DNA of 64,000 bases from Geothrix sp. SG200 (GTDB lineage: Bacteria; Acidobacteriota; Holophagae; Holophagales; Holophagaceae), in assembly GCF_022808935.1 (NCBI RefSeq), contig NZ_JAKZFR010000001.1, forward strand, positions 992,001-1,056,000, given 5' to 3'. The stretch's first letter is position 1. Every line of letters begins with the position of its first letter. The translations under genes and the position numbers were made by a program. Of the stretch, positions 3,199 to 50,871 are shown in pieces. The notes beneath the pieces are model-generated. The model was given only the letters and a program-made list of their open reading frames with translations. It was not told the DNA's origin and did not search any database.

Positions 3199-5123
<1,925 letters not shown>

Positions 5124-5127
5124 AGGG

Positions 5128-6147
5128 TCACTCCTTCGGGCCTTCGCCCAAGTGTCCTTCCAGTGTACTAGGCCCCGGAAGGCGGCTGAACCTAAGATGC
5201 ACGTAATCGCCCTCTGGTTCGGAATCCAGATGGAAATTCCCCCAGGAGGAAGGCTTGCGGCCCCTCTCAAGGCGCGCGGCGAGCCAGGGCGCGAGGCCCC
5301 GCAACAGGGCCGCCTCCCGCGGCCAGTCGAGTCGGCGGAAGGCGCATTCCAGCGTCCAGCGCAGCTCCGGCTCGGCCCACGCGCCTCGCTGGAAGGTGAT
5401 TCCATGATCGGCAATGGACCAGCGGGTGCCCTCCCAGCCAGCGATGAGCAGACCCGCCAGGTGCTTGGCCTCCTCAGCCTGGAGGTGGGTCTCGAACAGA
5501 TGGCGGTCCAGGTCGGGCGCCTCTCGCCGCAGGGTGTCGAGGAGGGGCCGCCAGCGGTTCCGCGCCGTGAAGGGCTCGGCGTTGCTGGCGTCTTCCCGCC
5601 AGGGGATGCCCCGGGCCGCCAGGTAGGACCTCAGATCGGCGCGGCGGATCTCCGCCAGGGGCGACCAGCGGAGGCCCTGACGCGGCGCCAGAGGCTGCAG
5701 GCAGCCCAGGCCGCCGCCCCGGGTCAGGCGCAGGAAGACGGTCTCTGTGTGGTCGTCCAGGGTGTGGCCCGTGGCCACGGCTGTCGCGCCGCTCTGCCTG
5801 GCTTCCTGGCGGAACCAATCCCACCGGAGGGCCCGGGCGGCCATCTCGAGGCCAAGCCGGTGGGCATCCGCGTGAGCCCTGACGCCGAGGGTGGCCTCGG
5901 CGAGATCCAGGTTGAGGGCGCGGCAGAGCTGGCGCACGAAGTCCGCATCCTCCCCCGACTCCGCGCGCAGGCCGTGGTCCGCGTGGAGTACGGCCAGATC
6001 CAGGTCCAGGCTCTTCCGGAGCGTCCACAGGAGCATGAGGAGCGCGGTCGAATCCCCGCCGCCCGAGCAGGCCACCAGCACGCGGCCATGGACGCCATCG
6101 CCCCGGCGCTGGATCTGCGCGAACAGGTCGGATTCGAACCGGTTCAT
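5128..6147 (-). CDS. tilS: tRNA(Ile)-lysidine synthase
   Basis: Modifies cytidine 34 of the CAU-anticodon tRNA-Ile to lysidine so that it reads AUA. It has 339 residues with the N-type ATP pyrophosphatase loop SGGGDS at 28-33, followed by HADHGLR and [15 protein letters not shown], typical of TilS. The ATG at 6147 overlaps the bshB stop (ATGA). The frame is open further upstream, but that part is antisense-like shadow of bshB. The ftsH ribosome binding site lies just beyond the tilS stop. C-terminal conservation is weaker, as usual in this family. Confidence 0.93.
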
Positions 6148-6863
6148 GCGGGGGGGTCCAGCCGTCCCACGAGTTCCAGCAGCGCCTTCGGCACGGGCAG
6201 GTCGCACCAGAGCGCCTCGGCCCATTCGCACATGCGCAGGGAGCCCCAGTGCATGGCCCGGCCCACGACACCTCGGCGGAAGGCGGGATGGGCGATCCGC
6301 GTGACGGGCTGGGAGGGATCCTGGTTGAACTGGCTCCCGAAGGCGTCGAAGGCGGCCATGCGGCGGGCCCACACAGCGCTCACGTCGACCAGCAGGTGCG
6401 GCTGGGCCGGGTTCTCGCCGCCGGCCCAGGCCACCGCCTCCGGCCGCCAGGGCGTCCCGGGGCAGGGGTAGTTCTTCAGACCCGCGTAGTAGGCGGCTTC
6501 CCGGGCCAGGCGATGGGCCCGGCGGTGATCGGGGTGGCGGTCGTCCGGGGCGGGGAGGATCAGCACCCGGGGCCGCATCCGGCGGATCTCCGCCATGAGG
6601 CGGATTCGGAAGGCCTCATCCTCCGTGAACCTCCCGTCGGGGAAATCGAGGACCGTGCGGGTCACGCCGAGGATTCGTGCCGCCTCCTGCGCCTCGGCGC
6701 GGCGGGTCTCCGCGGTACCGCGGGTGCCGAGGTCGCCGCTGGTGAGATCCAGGATGGCCGCCCTCATCCCCCGATCCGAGGCCAGGGCCAGGATCCCGCC
6801 CACGTGGACTTCCACGTCGTCGGGGTGGGCGCCAAGGGCGAGCAGATCCAAATCGTGGCTCAT
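6144..6863 (-). CDS. bshB: Bacillithiol biosynthesis deacetylase BshB (PIG-L/LmbE family)
   Basis: Predicted zinc-dependent deacetylase of GlcNAc-malate, the second step of bacillithiol synthesis. It has 239 residues. The N-terminal AHPDDVE motif (His13, Asp15, Asp16) and the downstream HPDHRRAH supply the zinc and catalytic residues; SGDLGTRGT and AYYAGLKNY are typical of the BshB1 subgroup. Its coupling to bshC (ATGA overlap at 6860-6863) supports the thiol role over other PIG-L functions. The glycosyltransferase BshA is not in this window. Confidence 0.9.
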   Translation of the reverse strand: MSHDLDLLALGAHPDDVEVHVGGILALASDRGMRAAILDLTSGDLGTRGTAETRRAEAQEAARILGVTRTVLDFPDGRFTEDEAFRIRLMAEIRRMRPRVLILPAPDDRHPDHRRAHRLAREAAYYAGLKNYPCPGTPWRPEAVAWAGGENPAQPHLLVDVSAVWARRMAAFDAFGSQFNQDPSQPVTRIAHPAFRRGVVGRAMHWGSLRMCEWAEALWCDLPVPKALLELVGRLDPPA

Positions 6864-8598: not shown

Positions 8599-9900
8599 AT
8601 GCTGACCCTCGACTTCTCCACCCTGAAGGAAGCCATCATGGCCGCCGCCCTGGGCCTGATGATGGGGCTGGAGCGGGAGAGCAGCGGGTTCGAGCGGAGC
8701 CGCGAGAGCCAGGAGGCGCTGAACCGCCGCGAGACCGACCGCGTCGAGGGCCTTCAGGGCGCCCTGGGGGCGCGCACCTTCGCCCTGCTGACCCTTCTGG
8801 GCTGGATTTCGGTGAAGGTGGGGGGCGGAAGCCTCGCCATGCCCATCGCCGTCCAGGCCTTCGCGGCGATCCTGATCGGCCTCTTCTATTTCCGGAACAG
8901 TTCGCCGGACCGCGGGCTGACCACGGAGGTCGCCGCCCTGGCCGCGCCGCTGCTGGGCATGCTCCTCACCCGGGACGCCCTGCTGGCGGTGGCGCTGGCC
9001 GTGATCATGACCCTGCTCCTGCTGTCCAAGCCCTGGATCCGCGCCTGGATCCCCCGGCTCCATCGCGAGGACCTGATCGCGGCGATGCAGCTGCTCCTCG
9101 TCTTCGCCATCCTTCTGCCGCTGCTGCCGTCCCGGGTGCTGGATCCGTGGGGCGTGCTTTCGCCGCAGAAGGTGGGGTGGATGGTGGCTCTGGTGGCGTC
9201 CGTGGATTTTCTGGGGTACGCCCTTAGCCGTGTGCTGGGATCCAGGCGGGGGGCCGCGCTGACGGGCCTGGTGGGTGGGATGGTCAGTTCGACGGTGGTG
9301 GCCGTCACCATGTCCAGGCAGGCCCGGGAGCACCCTTCGATGCGGAGCGCCGGCCAGGTGGCCGTGATGCTGGCTTGCGCCACCATGGCGGTTCGCGTGG
9401 CCTTCCTCGCGGGAGTCGTCGGCGGAGGGAGTCTCCTCCGTCCGCTCCTGCTGCCCATGGCAGCCATGGTGGCGACCTTGCTGGCTGCGACCTGGTGGAT
9501 GTACCGGTCCGGCGAGGGCCTGGGTGTCGGTACGGACGACATGCCCCTGCGCAACCCCTTCCACCTGAAACGCGCCCTGGCCTGGGGCCTGGCCCTGGCC
9601 ACGGTCTTGCTCCTGTCGGCCGCGGCCCGGGCCTGGTTCGGGGATCGGGGGCTGCTGGTGACGGCCGGGATCTCAGGACTGGCGGATGTGACGCCCATTA
9701 CCCTGGCGGTGAGCAGCCAGGTCCACTCGATCGGCCTGGATTCCCGGACGGCCGTCCTGGCCATCGTCCTGGCCATCGGCGCGAACACCCTCGCCAAGGC
9801 CGGATTCGCTTGGATCTCCGGCGGCCGTGCCTTCGGCATGCGCCTGACCGCCATGCTGGCTGCCTCGCTGGTGGCGGCTCTGGCGATGGTGGTTCTCTGA
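8599..9900 (+). CDS. MgtC/SapB-DUF4010 family inner membrane protein
   Basis: 433-residue polytopic membrane protein with roughly a dozen hydrophobic segments. The N-terminal part (AALGLMMGLERE, then GLQGALGARTFALLTLLGW) resembles the MgtC/SapB domain. The C-terminal half (GLVGGMVSSTVVAVTMSRQAREHPS and ISGLADVTPITLAVSS) matches the DUF4010 permease-like domain. Its substrate is unknown; MgtC relatives are tied to magnesium homeostasis and ATP synthase control, and direct transport is unproven. GGGAG upstream of the ATG supports the start. Confidence 0.85.
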   Translation: MLTLDFSTLKEAIMAAALGLMMGLERESSGFERSRESQEALNRRETDRVEGLQGALGARTFALLTLLGWISVKVGGGSLAMPIAVQAFAAILIGLFYFRNSSPDRGLTTEVAALAAPLLGMLLTRDALLAVALAVIMTLLLLSKPWIRAWIPRLHREDLIAAMQLLLVFAILLPLLPSRVLDPWGVLSPQKVGWMVALVASVDFLGYALSRVLGSRRGAALTGLVGGMVSSTVVAVTMSRQAREHPSMRSAGQVAVMLACATMAVRVAFLAGVVGGGSLLRPLLLPMAAMVATLLAATWWMYRSGEGLGVGTDDMPLRNPFHLKRALAWGLALATVLLLSAAARAWFGDRGLLVTAGISGLADVTPITLAVSSQVHSIGLDSRTAVLAIVLAIGANTLAKAGFAWISGGRAFGMRLTAMLAASLVAALAMVVL

Positions 9901-9918
9901 AACCTGTGCCCGCAGGGC

Positions 9919-10104
9919 CTATTTCCCGCGGTTGCTCATTCGCGTATGAGCGACGCCGCTCTTGCCCTGGGGCCGGGCGGAAGCTTTGACCACAGGCTTG
10001 GGGTGGGCATCGGCCTTCGGTTTTCCGGTGGTGGACACTGGAACCGGCTTGTCCGCGGCCTGGACCTGCTTCAGGAGATCGGCGGGGACGAGTGGCTTGG
10101 TCAT
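9919..10104 (-). CDS. Small basic hypothetical protein, 61 residues
   Basis: Short, lysine-, proline- and alanine-rich protein starting MTKPLVPADLLKQ and ending RMSNRGK. It looks intrinsically disordered, has no cysteines and no membrane segment. AGGAG seven bases before the ATG at 10104 is a good ribosome binding site and is the main reason to call it. Function unknown; the basic tail would suit nucleic-acid contact, which is only a guess. Confidence 0.5.
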   Translation of the reverse strand: MTKPLVPADLLKQVQAADKPVPVSTTGKPKADAHPKPVVKASARPQGKSGVAHTRMSNRGK

Positions 10105-10244
10105 GGGAGTGCTCCTGGCTTCGATTCTAGCCCAGCATGCCAATGCCCCGTCGGCGCGGATGTGACTGACCTCAAATCGCATGCTCCCCAGCCGGGGTTA
10201 ATCTGGATTGAGGCGGGGCGCAGCCTGGGCCTTCCAGGGGGGGG

Positions 10245-11582
10245 ATGACCATGGTGACAGCGGCGGGGGAACGCATGGTGGAAGCGGCCCTGAGCTCCTT
10301 CGACGCCTGGCGGGCCGCCTCCCGCCTGGAGCGCAGGCGGCTCATCGACGCCTGGCTCGGGGAGGTGGGCCACGCGAGAGAGGAACTCGCGCGTCTCCTG
10401 ACCCAGGAGACCGGCAAGCCCATCACCCTGGCGCGGGGCGAGGTGGGCCGGGCCGAGGCGACCCTCCGGGCAACCGCCGAGGCGATCGGGACCTTCGGGG
10501 AGGAGGCGGTGCCCTACGACCTGATGGCCGGCGCGGATGGCTGCCGGGCGATTTTCCGGCGCTTCCCCGTAGGACCCGTCCTGGCGATCACGCCCTTCAA
10601 CTTCCCCGTGAACCTGGCGGTCCACAAGCTTGGACCGGCCCTGGCCGCGGGCTGCAGCGCCATCTGGAAGCCCTGCCCCCAGGCGCCTCTCACCTCGACG
10701 CTGCTGTGGGACACATTCGAGACGGCCCGCCGGGGCACCGGGGCGCCCGCCGGCCTGCTCCAGCTGGCGCCCTCGGATCCAGTCTCGGCCGAGGCCATGG
10801 CGAAGGATCCGCGCATCGCGGCGGTGAGCTTCACCGGCTCCGAGCGGGTAGGGCGGCATCTGGAGCAGGTGCTCGCCGGCAAGCGGCTGCTTCTGGAGCT
10901 GGGCGGCAACGGCGCTGTGGTGGTGGATGAAGGGGTGGATGCCGCGGCTGTGGCGCGCTCGCTGGCGCCCGCCGCCGTGGCCGGAGCGGGGCAGAGCTGC
11001 TCCAAGGCCCAGCGGATCTATGTGCACCGGAACCTCTGGGAGTCCTTCGCCCCGGCCTTCGTGGCGGCCGTGAAGGCCATGCCCGTGGGCGATCCCATGG
11101 ATCCCGCCACCGTGGTCGGTCCCCTCATCGACGAGGCCACGGCCCGCCGCATGGACGAGGGCCTCGACCGGGCGGTGGCTGCGGGCGCCGAAGTGCTCCT
11201 GCGGGGATCCCGGCAGGGGGCGCTGTTGCCGCCCGCCATCCTTGCGGGTCTGCCCGAAGACGACCCCTTCCAATGCGAGGAGGCTTTCTCCCCCATCACG
11301 GTGCTTACGCCTGTGGACAGCTTCGAGGAGGGCCTCGACCGGGCCGCCGCCACGCGCTATGGCTTGCGGGCCAGCGCCTACAGCCGGGACCAGCGGCACC
11401 TCCGCCTGGCGGAGGCGAGCCTGCGGGCCGGGGGCGTCCTGCTGAACCTGCCGCCCACCTTCCGGCTGGATGCGGCCCCGTTCGGTGGGGTGCGGGCCAG
11501 CGGCAACGGATTCGAAGGTCCCCGGTGGGCGATGGAGGGCTTCACCGAAGGCCGTCTCATCGTCGAAGGTCCGGCCCTGTAA
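10245..11582 (+). CDS. NAD(P)-dependent aldehyde dehydrogenase
   Basis: 445-residue member of the ALDH superfamily that oxidises an aldehyde to the acid. Visible landmarks are the TPFNFP loop (Asn119), the nucleotide-binding FTGSERVG (196-203), general base Glu218 in LELGG, and nucleophile Cys252 in [12 protein letters not shown]. The serine-rich setting SCSK and the short N-terminus are closest to succinate-semialdehyde-type or broad-range enzymes; the substrate cannot be fixed from sequence. A strong GGGGG tract precedes the ATG. The divergent spacer to 10104 contains TAATCT at 10199, a possible -10. Confidence 0.9.
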
Positions 11583-46311: not shown

Positions 46312-48564
46312 ATGAAACGTAAGCAGGAAGCCCTCGACTACCATTCGCAGGGACGGAAGGGGAAGATCGAAGTCATTGCCACGAAGCCCTGCTCCACCGC
46401 ACGGGACCTGTCGCTGGCCTACTCCCCGGGCGTGGCGGAACCCTGCCTGGAGATCGAGAAGGACAACGAGCTTGCCTACACCTACACTGCCAAGGGCAAC
46501 CTGGTGGCCGTGATCTCCAACGGCACCGCCGTGCTGGGCCTGGGCGACATCGGCGCCGTGGCCGGCAAGCCGGTGATGGAGGGCAAGGGAGTCCTGTTCA
46601 AGCGCTTCGCCGACATCGATGTGTTCGACATCGAAGTGGACGAGAAGGACATCGACAAGTTCTGCCAGGTCGTCAAGGCCCTGGAGCCCACCTTCGGCGG
46701 CGTGAACCTCGAGGACATCAAGGCCCCCGAGTGCTTCGAGATCGAGACCCGCCTGAAGAAGGAGATGAAGATCCCCGTCTTCCACGACGATCAGCACGGC
46801 ACCGCCATCATCAGCACGGCAGCGTTGATGAACGCCTCCGAGATCGTGAAGAAGAAGCTGGGCGACATGAAGGTGGTGTTCAGCGGCGCCGGGGCCTCCG
46901 CCATCGCCTGCGCCAACATGATGATCCGCGCCGGCGTCAAGCTCGAGAACCTGTGGCTCTGCGACACCAAGGGGCTGGTCTACACCGGCCGCAAGGAGGG
47001 CATGAACAAGTACAAGGACAAGTTCGCCAAGCCCAGCGACTGGCGCACGCTCTCGGACACGATCAAGGACGCCGATGTCTTCGTGGGCTGCTCGAGCAAG
47101 GGCGCGCTGACGCCCGAGATGCTCCTGAGCATGGCCAAGAACCCCATCGTCTTCGCCCTGGCCAACCCCGATCCCGAGATCGACTACCCCACGGCCAAGG
47201 CCACCCGCGACGACATCATCCTGGCCACGGGCCGCAGCGACTACCCGAACCAGGTGAACAACGTCCTGGGCTTCCCCTTCATCTTCCGCGGCGCCCTCGA
47301 TGTCCGCGCCTCGGAGATCAACGAGGAGATGAAGCTGGCCGCCGCCAAGGCCCTGGCGGCCCTGGCCAAGGAAGAGGTGCCGGATGCCGTGGTGAAGGCC
47401 TACTCGGGCCAGAAGTTCACCTTCGGTCCCGAGTACATCATCCCCAAGCCCTTCGATCCCCGCGTGCTGCTGTGGGTGGCTCCGGCCGTGGCCAAGGCGG
47501 CCATGGAGAACGGCGTCGCCAAGCAGCCCATCCCTGACATGCAGGCCTACAAGGAGCGCCTCGAAGGCCTCCAGGGCCGCAGCAAGGACGTGATCCGGAG
47601 CGTGGTCCACCGGGCCAAGACCAATCCCAAGCGCGTGGTCTTCCCCGAGAGCACCCACCCGCTGATCCTGCAGGCCGTGTCCCAGATGGTGGACGAAGGC
47701 ATCTGCGTGCCCATCCTGCTGGGCGATCCCGCCAAGGTGAAGGCCGTGGCCGCCGATCACGGCATCTCCATCGAGGGCGTCGAGATCCAGGATCCCGCCA
47801 CCGTCTCCTGGCGGAAGGACGCGGAGGACGCCTACCTGGAGCTGCGGAAGCGCCGGGGCGTCACCCGCGACGAGGCCAGCCGGAAGGTGCTCGAGCCGAT
47901 CTACTTCGGCGCACTGATGTGCCGCCTGGGCAAGGCCGACGGCCTCATCGCGGGCCTGACGATGTACTACCCCGACACCATCCGGCCCTGTCTGGAGGTG
48001 ATCGGCACCCGCAAGGGCGTCAAGCGCGTCTGCGGCGTCTACACCATGGTGCTGAAGAACCGCGTGCTCTTCTTCTCCGACACCACCATGAACATCGAGC
48101 CCAGCAGCGAGGAACTGGCCGAGATCGCCCTGCTCACGGCCGACCTGGCCAAGGATCGGTTCAACATGGAGCCCAAGGTGGCCATGCTGTCCTTCTCCGA
48201 CTTCGGCAGCGTGGACCATCCCCTGGTCCGCAAGGTCCAGAAGGCGGTGGAGATCGTCAAGGTCCAGCGACCCGACCTCAAGTGCGATGGCGAGATGCAG
48301 GCGGACACGGCCCTCGGGGATGGCATCCTGGCCGAGAGCTACCCCTGGGTGGACCTCCCGGGCGGCCCGAACGTGCTGATCTTCCCCGACCTCACCAGCG
48401 GCAACATCGGCTACAAGCTGGTGCAGCGGCTGGCGGGCGCCGAGGTCATCGGCCCCATCACCTGCGGCATGGCCGCTCCTGTGCATGTGCTCCAGCGCCA
48501 CAGCGACCTGAACGACATCATCCACCTCACGGCGCTCACCGTCGTGGAGGCACAGCAGAAGTAG
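46312..48564 (+). CDS. maeB: NADP-type malic enzyme fused to a phosphotransacetylase domain
   Basis: 750 residues, the size of MaeB. The malic enzyme part (1-425) has [21 protein letters not shown] and the dinucleotide fold [12 protein letters not shown]. The C-terminal Pta-like domain (about 440-750) has [24 protein letters not shown] and [12 protein letters not shown]. In characterised MaeB the Pta domain is regulatory (acetyl-CoA sensing) rather than catalytic. AAGGAG precedes the ATG. TAAGCT at 46256 is a possible -10. It makes pyruvate and reducing power from malate. Confidence 0.95.
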
Positions 48565-48656: not shown

Positions 48657-49040
48657 ATGTACTACATCGTCGAATCCGAAAAACCCTTCGAGCAGGCCTC
48701 GGCCGACCTGGAGGTTGCGGTGCAGGCCGGCGGCTTCGGTGTGCTCCACGTCCACGACCTGGGGAACACCCTGCGCAGCAAGGGCTTTCCATTCACGGAG
48801 GCCTGCCGGGTCTTCGAGGTGTGCAACCCGGGCCAGGCATCCAAGGTCCTTGGACTCGATCTGCGCTTGAACATGGCGCTGCCCTGCCGCATCTCCGTCT
48901 ACACGGATCAGGGACGCACCCGGATCGGCCTCATTCCACCTTCGGATCTGCTCGAGGGCCTGTCGAAGGATCCCGCGCTGCTTCCCACCGCCCGTGAGGT
49001 GGAGACGGCCTTGATCCGGATGGTGGATGCGGCCCGCTGA
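48657..49040 (+). CDS. DUF302 protein
   Basis: 127 residues with the DUF302 pattern: LEVAVQAGGFGVLHVHDLGNTLRSKG, the cysteine motif CRVFEVCNP, and LPCRISVYTDQG. Family function is unknown; homologues occur beside sulfur and redox genes and bind small ligands or haem in some cases. AGGAGGCGG precedes the ATG. TATGAT at 48622 may be the -10. Confidence 0.87.
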   Translation: MYYIVESEKPFEQASADLEVAVQAGGFGVLHVHDLGNTLRSKGFPFTEACRVFEVCNPGQASKVLGLDLRLNMALPCRISVYTDQGRTRIGLIPPSDLLEGLSKDPALLPTAREVETALIRMVDAAR

Positions 49041-49128: not shown

Positions 49129-49575
49129 ATGGGTGATGTGCTGTGTGCGTGGTGCGGAGCCGTGGTCGGCCAGAGCGAGGTCGACCATTCCCATGGCATC
49201 TGCCGCGCCTGCTACCGGGAGCTGCTTCGCATTCCGGATCTGTCCGAGGAGGCCTTGGACGACTTGCCGTTCGGGGTGATCATCCTGGCCAAGGACGGGA
49301 CCGTCCTCGCCTATAACCCCGCGGAAGGCGCGCTCGCGGGCCGCGAGCCCAGCGCGGTGATCGGCCGCCATTTCTTCACCGAGATCGCCCCCTGCACCTC
49401 GGTCCGGGAATTCCAGGGCGTCTTCCGCGAATTCTGCGAGAGGGAAGATGCTTCCAGGACGTTCCAGTTCACCTTCCACTTTCCAACTGGTTCGGTCCGG
49501 GTGCAGATCGTTTTCCTCCACCGAGGCACGGACGTGGTCGTCGCCGTCCGGAAACGGACCGATCCGGCTGCCTGA
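49129..49575 (+). CDS. Zinc-motif plus photoactive-yellow-protein-like PAS protein
   Basis: 148 residues. The N-terminal part (1-35) has Cys6-x2-Cys9 and SHGICRAC (His22, Cys25, Cys28), a compact form of the SHGIC zinc motif seen in signalling proteins. Residues 45-145 align without gaps, offset 20, to photoactive yellow protein: Tyr62, Glu66, Arg72 and Cys89 (in IAPCT) match PYP Tyr42, Glu46, Arg52 and Cys69; Thr50 is Ala70 here. The cysteine that binds p-coumarate is thus kept. No tyrosine ammonia lyase or coumarate-CoA ligase gene is seen here. It could be a photoreceptor or a PYP-derived sensor without chromophore. Confidence 0.85.
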   Translation: MGDVLCAWCGAVVGQSEVDHSHGICRACYRELLRIPDLSEEALDDLPFGVIILAKDGTVLAYNPAEGALAGREPSAVIGRHFFTEIAPCTSVREFQGVFREFCEREDASRTFQFTFHFPTGSVRVQIVFLHRGTDVVVAVRKRTDPAA

Positions 49576-49582
49576 GGGCGAT

Positions 49583-50380
49583 CTAGCTGGAGGACTCCAG
49601 CTGCTGCAGCCAGGCCCGGATCTCGGGATCGGGGTCCTGGCTGAGGCGCAGGGCCTCGCGGAGGTCAGCCAGGGCGGGGGCGGGTTCGTCCCTCTGGAGG
49701 TGCACGAAGGCGCGTTCCTTGTGGGACCGGGCATCGCCGGGATCCAGCAGGATCAGGTGGGTGGCCGTCCACAGGGCCTCCTCCCAGTCCTCGGCGTGCA
49801 TGAACCGCAGGTGGAGGTTGCGTACGAGGCGGATGAGGATCTGGCGGTCTGTGGCGGGCCTCAGCATGTCGCGGTGGAAGGTGATCCGTCCGGCGCTGGC
49901 GGCCTTCACCAGGGCAGCGCCTCCCTCTTCGCCCACGGCGCGCCCACGGTTGAAGGGATCGAAGCACAGCAGGCCGGACGGCGAGCGCAGGGCGGCAATG
50001 AAGTGGCCCGGCAGGCCCACGCCCACGGCATCGAAGCCCATGCGCCGGGCCAGATCGATCCACAGGATGGATAGGGAGATGGGCAGGCCCTTGCGCCGGG
50101 CCACCACGGCGGGGAGCAGAGCGTTCAGGGGATCGTCGTAGGTCTCTCGATCCCCGTCGAAGCCGAGCTCCTCGAAGAGCAGGTGGTTGAGGGCCTCCAG
50201 GGCCCGGCCGGTGTCCCAGGGCAGGGGCATGCGCCCCGCGAGGGTGAAGGCCCATTCGTTGAGCTGCATCACCACCGAGGCGGGATCGGGGTCTTCCAGG
50301 GCCGGCGCCACGGCGTGGATGGCCCCTTCGGCCAGGTTCCGGCACTCCGGATCCAGGCGGAGGTATTCGAGCAGGGACAT
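49583..50380 (-). CDS. SirB1-family protein (transglutaminase-like plus TPR)
   Basis: 265 residues. The SirB1_N domain includes LNALLPAVVARRKGLPISLSILWIDLARRMG and GVGLPGHFIAAL; the TPR-like end has WEEALWTATHLILLDPGDARSHKERAFVHLQR. The transglutaminase-like core normally has Cys-His-Asp; here the nucleophile position reads as Ser (PISLSILW), so activity is doubtful. The ATG shares a base with the stop of the upstream gene (TGATG). Confidence 0.85.
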   Translation of the reverse strand: MSLLEYLRLDPECRNLAEGAIHAVAPALEDPDPASVVMQLNEWAFTLAGRMPLPWDTGRALEALNHLLFEELGFDGDRETYDDPLNALLPAVVARRKGLPISLSILWIDLARRMGFDAVGVGLPGHFIAALRSPSGLLCFDPFNRGRAVGEEGGAALVKAASAGRITFHRDMLRPATDRQILIRLVRNLHLRFMHAEDWEEALWTATHLILLDPGDARSHKERAFVHLQRDEPAPALADLREALRLSQDPDPEIRAWLQQLESSS

Positions 50381-50871
50381 CAGCCCCTCCGGCGAATCAC
50401 CGCGCGGGCCACGAGGGCCGCTGCGACCAGGCCCATGGCGCCCCAGGCCCAGTTCATCCACGAGCTGGTGGCGGCCTGGACCTTCTTGGCCTCCTCGGCC
50501 TTCCTGGCGTTCTCTTCGATGGAGATCTTGGACTGCGCCTCGCGGGCATCCTTCACGGCCTTCTGGCCGGATTCACGGGAGGCCTGGAGCTCCTTGGCCG
50601 CAGCCTCCTGTTCCTCCTGGATGCCCAGAACCGCGACATGCCTCTGGGGCTGGACCTTGGGTCCGGTGCTGGCGGGCACCACATCACACTCGTCGCTGTC
50701 GGAAACCGGGCCCTGGCTGGAATCCAGGGATTCGGTGAGGGCCTGGATGTCCTCCCGCAGGCCCTGCATCACCTGGTTCTGGCGGTGGAGTTGGGCGCCC
50801 TGCAGCCAGAGCATGAGCAGCTGGAGCACCAGGAGGGTGGGGATGGTCCATTGGAGTGGGCGGCGGGTCAT
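50380..50871 (-). CDS. Coiled-coil protein with two membrane helices, 163 residues
   Basis: N-terminal helix (about 8-25), a Ser/Asp-rich spacer, a coiled coil (about 85-130: EEQEAAAKELQASRESGQKA and on) and a C-terminal membrane helix (about 137-158) ending RAVIRRRG. No family match. ATGA overlap with the phosphatase upstream and TGATG overlap with the SirB1 gene downstream put it in the middle of a three-gene operon. Confidence 0.72.
   Translation of the reverse strand: MTRRPLQWTIPTLLVLQLLMLWLQGAQLHRQNQVMQGLREDIQALTESLDSSQGPVSDSDECDVVPASTGPKVQPQRHVAVLGIQEEQEAAAKELQASRESGQKAVKDAREAQSKISIEENARKAEEAKKVQAATSSWMNWAWGAMGLVAAALVARAVIRRRG

Follow-up and report, generated by a model that had tools for sequence, protein, structure and literature searches.

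What kind of protein is encoded by the open reading frame (ORF) at positions 49,129 to 49,575 of a 64,000-nucleotide stretch of the Geothrix sp. SG200 genome (contig NZ_JAKZFR010000001.1, positions 992,001 to 1,056,000; hereafter the window), and does its product respond to light? A first-pass annotation had described a photoactive yellow protein (PYP)-like domain preceded by a zinc-type motif and had suggested a light or redox sensor. We find that the ORF encodes a PYP-family PAS domain behind a compact Cys4 zinc-type motif, and that this protein, which we designate Zn-PYP, is a real, conserved and new variant of the PYP family. Its features are as follows.

49129..49575, + strand: Zn-PYP gene, 148 amino acids, ATG start; zinc-type N-terminal cap and PYP-family PAS domain
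49129..49224, + strand: compact zinc-type motif, residues 1-32, C6-A-W-C9 ... S-H-G-I-C25-R-A-C28
49240..49560, + strand: PYP domain, residues 38-144 (PYP number is residue minus 20), from the alignment and the AlphaFold2 model

A PYP-family domain behind a Cys4 motif

Using phmmer, residues 38 to 127 of the protein were aligned with PYP residues 18 to 107 over 90 residues at an offset of 20 and without a gap, as had been annotated, and the best PYP match had an E value of 3.4e-20. The PYP-domain residues placed in this way are Ile51, Tyr62, Glu66, Ala70, Arg72, Phe82, Ala87-Pro88-Cys89 and Phe116, and they include all of those named previously (Tyr62, Glu66, Ala70, Arg72 and Cys89). Like the PYP of Halorhodospira halophila (1otd, 2phy), the protein combines a PAS fold with the equivalents of Tyr42, Glu46, Arg52 and Cys69. 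The earlier statement that only Thr50 is replaced held in part. Alanine does stand at PYP position 50 (Ala70), but it is the consensus there over 984 PYPs and occurs in 4 of 12 characterised PYPs (PMC12826048), so that no loss is implied, and the equivalent of Val66 is also changed, to isoleucine.

Profile searches gave the same placement. The NCBIfam model TIGR02373 (photo_yellow) matched the protein with an E value of 1.9e-28 and 99 bits, far ahead of the generic PAS model TIGR00229 (0.012); Pfam assigned a generic PAS domain. The 143.05-bit cut-off of TIGR02373, an equivalog model for classical PYP, was not reached, and this model recovers about 20% of the PYP homologues found by BLAST (PMC9664959). 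Among solved chains matched by sequence, the first 33 of 43 were PYP, Ppr-PYP or PYP-derived. With the AlphaFold2 model (pLDDT 78, pTM 0.72), the top 39 Foldseek rows were all PYP or PYP-derived, and the VIA comparison with PYP 1otd gave a Z score of 16.6 and a root mean square deviation of 1.8 over 102 residues, the best other PAS chain scoring 14.5. Profile and fold, the checks that had been proposed, thus put the domain within the PYP family. In the sense of Xing 2022, where membership turns on Cys69 (PMC9664959), the protein is likewise a PYP: its homology is above that to other PAS domains, and Cys69, Tyr42, Glu46 and, in the predicted model, the fold are all present.

The annotated Cys-x2-Cys...Cys-x2-Cys motif is found as C6-x2-C9...C25-x2-C28, its cysteines being invariant in 16 aligned sequences, and the combination of a PYP domain with an N-terminal zinc-type motif is borne out by profile, alignment and conserved cysteines. 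Zn-PYPs contain the two conserved CxxC pairs by which zinc knuckles and ribbons are recognised. Model residues 24 to 143 superpose on PYP 7 to 125, which places the motif's second half at the start of the PYP cap and leaves its first half as an addition. Compared with H. halophila PYP, Zn-PYP differs in having a four-cysteine motif at the first part of the cap, in addition to alanine at position 50. The surveyed PYPs share the PYP domain and Cys69 with Zn-PYP; no zinc partner is described in the cited parts of either survey, and the words zinc and Geothrix are absent from their main texts (PMC12826048, PMC9664959). Proteins of up to 200 amino acids are classed there as single-domain, so the 148-residue Zn-PYP would not appear as a fusion. 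No paper on a phage PYP or a zinc PYP was among the literature matches listed, which is not proof of absence.

Relatives in Geothrix, other Acidobacteriota and viral contigs

The window genome groups with Geothrix, with orthologues in G. paludis (88% identity), G. terrae (88%) and G. fermentans (76%). A PYP match at E<=1e-5 was obtained in 16 of 37 Geothrix genomes, its own included; the zinc motif is present in 15 of them and missing from the PYP of G033. The window protein and 15 relatives, 41 to 88% identical, were aligned. Cys6, Cys9, Cys25 and Cys28, the Trp of C-x-W-C, Tyr62, Glu66 and Cys89 are invariant in all 16 sequences, whereas His22 is replaced in one. Since mean column identity is only 69%, the invariance of the cysteines is not due to chance. 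The reading frame is kept across the other Geothrix species. One genome (G356) has two Zn-PYP profile matches, on C14 and C5 (positions 3-145 and 3-144).

Homologues were also found in IMG/VR (2.9 million contigs, with scans limited to the peptide patterns used). The Zn-PYP profile scan found one and a broader PYP alignment found five; further scans added no new contig. The pattern FF[TRK][EDQ][VI]APC fits classical PYPs too, yet each of the five homologues confirmed among the 17 stretches that it matched is a zinc-type protein. They are 33 to 58% identical to one another, and all five keep both C-x-W-C and C-x2-C as well as the pocket residues Cys69, Glu46, Phe62, Ala67 and Pro68. A model of a viral Zn-PYP (pLDDT 81) was again PYP-like, its 39 best Foldseek rows all being PYP or PYP-derived, and the copy on contig L121 came closer to the Pfam family DZR_2 (3.6e-4, 20.7 of 27 bits), still below the cut-off. 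Among 50,697 annotated phage records there was no match, and PHROG held no family for the copy on L118. In a BFVD fold search of viral proteins, 14 rows were obtained at E<=0.001, at no more than 19% identity; none is named PYP, the names being PAS, kinase, response regulator, RGS or absent.

A fusion of the zinc-type motif with PYP also occurs in G130, a genome of another Acidobacteriota family. Taken together, the 22 zinc-type rows (16 Geothrix, five viral and G130) all have Cys69, Glu46, Phe62, Ala67 and Pro68, and 17 have Tyr42; the Cys and Trp of C-x-W-C and the second cysteine pair extend unchanged over the viral homologues and G130. A tree of 37 rows was built from the PYP domain only. 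In it, these 22 rows, the kinase fusion of G143 and G381 together made up a group of 24 that was separated from classical PYPs with support (97/94). A clade uniting the 22 zinc-type rows was not rejected (p-AU 0.41), which is no proof of a single origin of the cap.

The Zn-PYP profile matched 30 of 396 genomes of the phylum at 1e-6, some of the matches not being PYPs. In three genomes (G166, L081; G092, L085; G250, L088) a compact C-x-W-C ... C-x2-C motif resembling that of Zn-PYP precedes a PAS domain that, unlike Zn-PYP, lacks the PYP Cys69 context. When the 38-residue head was searched against its own genome, two further weak places were found (E values of 0.31 and 0.34): a multi-CxxCH stretch of cytochrome-like appearance (L058), and a long ICASCKKIRDD...THGICPDC motif ending a larger protein (L059), a layout that we take to be that of many sensor proteins. 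Occurring with PYP in G130, with non-PYP PAS domains and in the L059 version, the motif looks like a module that accompanies PAS sensors. The non-PYP proteins of L088, L081 and L085 have a second Cys-rich stretch after the motif and PAS domain.

Other PYP-like proteins were encountered in the same searches. EAL-PYP (G217, L094:6935-7999) and PYP-histidine-kinase (G143, L096:7587-8678) fusions occur in Acidobacteriota without the zinc motif, and short PYP-like proteins of one Acidobacteriota family (G385, L079; G421, L087) lack the Tyr42/Glu46 context by eye. Plasmids gave a match at 1e-5 in 4 of 72,556 records; one, from Caballeronia, is annotated pyp, adjoins an AMP-binding gene and lacks the zinc motif. 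The Caballeronia plasmid record NZ_CP049319.1 (L117) has five PYP-similar places.

Candidate functions of Zn-PYP

In all five viral contigs, the start of the Zn-PYP gene overlaps the end of a same-strand gene or lies within 25 bp of it (a raw count).

L118, same strand: repressor 9382-10011 (Peptidase_S24), Zn-PYP 10001-10411
L121, same strand: repressor 5336-5998 (Peptidase_S24), Zn-PYP 5995-6414
L122, same strand: helix-turn-helix (HTH) gene 4939-5517 (HTH_3, 3.9e-8), M78 gene 5514-5960 (Peptidase_M78, 3e-12), Zn-PYP 5986-6423
L123, same strand: 95-amino-acid gene 5711-5998 (Arc-like PHROG, 0.0011, weak), Zn-PYP 5995-6429
L120, same strand: gene from 5272 or 5344 to 5985 (DUF6364, 0.011-0.013, below cut-off), Zn-PYP 5995-6411

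The preceding gene is clearly of the repressor type in three contigs and weakly so in one; the two S24 repressors (L118, L121) match Peptidase_S24 with E values of 1.4e-16 and 1.9e-12. A small divergent upstream gene resembles an HTH repressor in L120 (PHROG, 2.9e-4) and, weakly, Arc in L118 (0.0075) and L123 (0.055); the divergent upstream genes tried in L121 and L122 showed no repressor likeness. Terminase was matched in three of the five viral records, in two of them with a portal gene beside it, and integrase in two of the five, but both searches also match nearly all of 14 control genomes and so mark mobile DNA rather than prove viral origin. L118 in addition carries a phage-type primase/helicase and replication genes. 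Acidobacteriota prophages were considered as hosts of the S24 repressors and rejected: at 1e-20 a match was obtained in 7 of 396 genomes, in every case confined to the peptidase half (starting near position 66 of 222), and these matches were taken for putative LexA. Two further genes were noted on these records, one for a receiver-like protein near the terminase of the L118 record (MTKILIVDDDDG..., by eye; L131:3539-4084; PHROG matches of unknown function), and a PAPS-reductase-type gene (L120:617-1429; phrog_424, 1.3e-39).

We favour, at somewhat less than even confidence, the notion that Zn-PYP is a stand-alone sensor that acts on partners by way of the zinc cap; in phages the partner is probably the repressor. 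It would be a PYP-type PAS sensor with a four-cysteine zinc knuckle in place of the N-terminal cap, and its pocket cysteine may bear an acyl-linked p-coumarate, or some other thiol ligand supplied by the environment or the host. A pocket signal would loosen the cap in the fashion of classical PYP, whose partial unfolding releases the N-terminal cap, and the zinc knuckle, now exposed or hidden, would bind a partner. In Geothrix no partner was seen nearby, and the phage operons offer the only concrete candidates; there the partner would most likely be the co-encoded repressor or M78 protease, with the sensor biasing lysogeny versus lysis. Classical PYP does signal through partial unfolding (PMC9664959), and the cited parts of both surveys treat the output of single-domain PYPs as an open question (PMC12826048, PMC9664959). 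Phages are known to use extra sensors that reach their repressor. VqmA of phage VP882 and the TF-smORF modules are, like the phage Zn-PYP proposed here, phage-encoded sensors or regulators that connect a cue other than DNA damage to induction; they are quorum-sensing receptors and transcription factors, whereas Zn-PYP has no recognised DNA-binding domain (PMC12324486, PMC10432266). The bacterial gene by itself is moderately interesting. The viral relatives add to that interest, since a PYP that occurs in nature with a short conserved cap motif, and whose relatives are encoded behind phage regulators, supplies concrete partner candidates.

Several observations weigh against this proposal. No Pfam zinc family matched the window protein above its cut-off (DZR_2, E=0.062, 13.6 of 27 bits), and zinc binding by the four motif cysteines is for this reason inferred. 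The gene upstream of Zn-PYP has no convincing family match in L120 and a weak one in L123; terminase was not matched in L122 or L123, nor integrase in L118, L121 or L122, so that the viral class of L122, with neither, rests on IMG/VR. The order inside the 24-row clade lacks resolution, and the clade also holds two proteins without the zinc motif; the viral rows group at only 60/77, and G130 Zn-PYP, L123 and G143 have long branches. Beyond the shared site, bacterial Zn-PYPs have no conserved signalling neighbour (other sites were judged by eye). The coumarate-CoA ligase model TIGR02372 matched 0 of 37 Geothrix genomes at E<=1e-20. In the viral pocket, Phe96 is Tyr in all five copies, and Tyr42 is Phe in four, each with Ser50, and Val in one, with Ala50. 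In H. halophila PYP Y42F, the hydrogen bond to the pigment moves to Thr50 (PMC9664959), so that the viral pair of Phe42 and Ser50 could in principle retain a pigment.

Zn-PYP may instead be an ordinary blue-light PYP, supplied with plant-derived coumarate activated by a broad CoA ligase, its zinc knuckle merely stabilising a short cap. We regard this as possible but unlikely. All 16 Geothrix rows retain Tyr42, Glu46 and Cys69, and alanine at position 50, as noted, is no obstacle among characterised PYPs. The search that found no ligase in Geothrix did find those of G050 (337 bits, above the cut-off of 334.7) and G048 (314 bits), which belong to the same class as Geothrix and adjoin PYPs without the zinc motif; at 1e-20 it matched 4 of 60 genomes in all, the others being the weak matches of G042 (95 bits) and G046 (87 bits). 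In eight further PYP-bearing genomes, five of them with Zn-less PYPs only, TIGR02372 matched at 1e-15 only in G143 (133 bits; cut-off, 335). The aromatic lyase family is present in 57 of 60 genomes. Tyrosine ammonia lyase (TAL) was rejected for the window genome, where the sole aromatic lyase, on another contig, passes the equivalog cut-off for HutH (539 bits) with 635 bits; the aromatic lyase beside the PYP of G048 does not reach the curated HutH cut-off. Compared with H. halophila PYP, the Zn-PYP genome has no p-coumarate-CoA ligase (pCL) match and no recognised TAL, and a classical pyp operon with pCL and/or TAL beside pyp was not found in it. The annotation had named missing ligase and lyase genes as half of a condition that would leave an ordinary PAS protein, and its light reading is weakened to that extent. 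The evidence is weak, however, because most predicted pyp operons hold neither gene (PMC12826048, PMC9664959); pCL is present in only 32% and TAL in 5% (PMC12826048). The single ligase match among the eight further PYP-bearing genomes likewise makes its absence a weak argument. Light sensing in Geothrix would need external coumarate or thioester or an unrecognised enzyme, and is unproven. The strict conservation of the four cysteines and Trp also suggests a role beyond that of a stabiliser. A cluster in G048 (L056:1054-4208) with lyase, PYP-type ligase and Zn-less PYP would be fit as a positive control.

For the phage copies, a second reading is that Zn-PYP serves lysogenic conversion or exclusion and rides in the repressor operon without acting on the repressor, which we think improbable, though worth weighing. 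Whatever the type of repressor, Zn-PYP follows it with no more than a short gap or overlap, and distinct repressors would require different contacts; lambda keeps rexAB behind its repressor, so that position is no proof of regulation. Such a passenger would nevertheless be a sensor fold with no obvious effector, and its place recurs in five of five contigs.

Somewhat less likely still, Zn-PYP could be a redox or thiol-ligand sensor, in which the Cys4 site, the pocket cysteine or both answer oxidants or acyl-CoA-type electrophiles and not light. No chromophore genes were found in Geothrix, and methylobacterial PYPs have been proposed to have changed from light to redox sensing (PMC9664959). The methylobacterial candidates, however, have Cys69 and Tyr42 substituted, whereas the zinc-type rows retain Cys69 and Glu46 without exception and Tyr42 in 17 of 22, and it is hard to see what Glu46 would do in a thiol switch.

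The most far-reaching form of the sensor proposal is that temperate phages carry a zinc-capped PYP photoreceptor, a repressor-operon product that would respond to light, or to an aromatic thioester of the host, and switch the repressor or M78 protease, with the Geothrix gene as its bacterial member. We consider this distinctly doubtful; were the phage copies to sense light, bacterial viruses would own a light-dependent lysogeny switch. That Zn-PYP is a pseudo-receptor, its sensing lost and its domain a structural adaptor only, is very unlikely: the viral changes at Tyr42 and Phe96 would fit, but survival of Cys69 and Glu46 would be unexpected among viral copies so divergent.

Chromosomal site of the Geothrix gene

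The genes that flank Zn-PYP in the window are these.

46312..48564, + strand: malic enzyme/phosphotransacetylase gene, presumably maeB-like from its sequence; left border of the accessory site, start set by eye
48657..49040, + strand: DUF302 gene (Pfam), upstream, optional neighbour
49583..50461, - strand: transglutaminase-like/TPR gene, convergent; right border, present with and without Zn-PYP

Zn-PYP is an accessory gene in Geothrix. In 11 loci and the window the order is maeB-like gene, Zn-PYP, convergent transglutaminase/TPR gene, small gene, SpoIIE, SDR; in one locus (L010) the Zn-PYP spot is taken up by a stretch of N. Four copies lie at other sites (L046, L051, L052, L053). The transglutaminase gene was found in 9 of 11 Geothrix genomes lacking PYP, with maeB in range in eight of the nine. 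Three of these eight loci have a junction of 74 to 116 bp and five an interval of 658 to 697 bp that holds another ORF, a lipoprotein by eye. A scan at the Zn-PYP gene gave no promoter and two terminator-like sites within the gene.

The annotation had offered the SpoIIE-type phosphatase nearby as a possible partner. It was rejected, since SpoIIE occupies the same place in all nine loci found in the 11 PYP-less genomes and is not tied to Zn-PYP. DUF302 was rejected as an obligate partner, as it lies beside Zn-PYP in 6 of the 12 same-site loci (window included), on either side. At one of the other sites, a photolyase-like gene (by eye; L046:2204-3607) lies about 4 kb from the Zn-PYP gene of G010.
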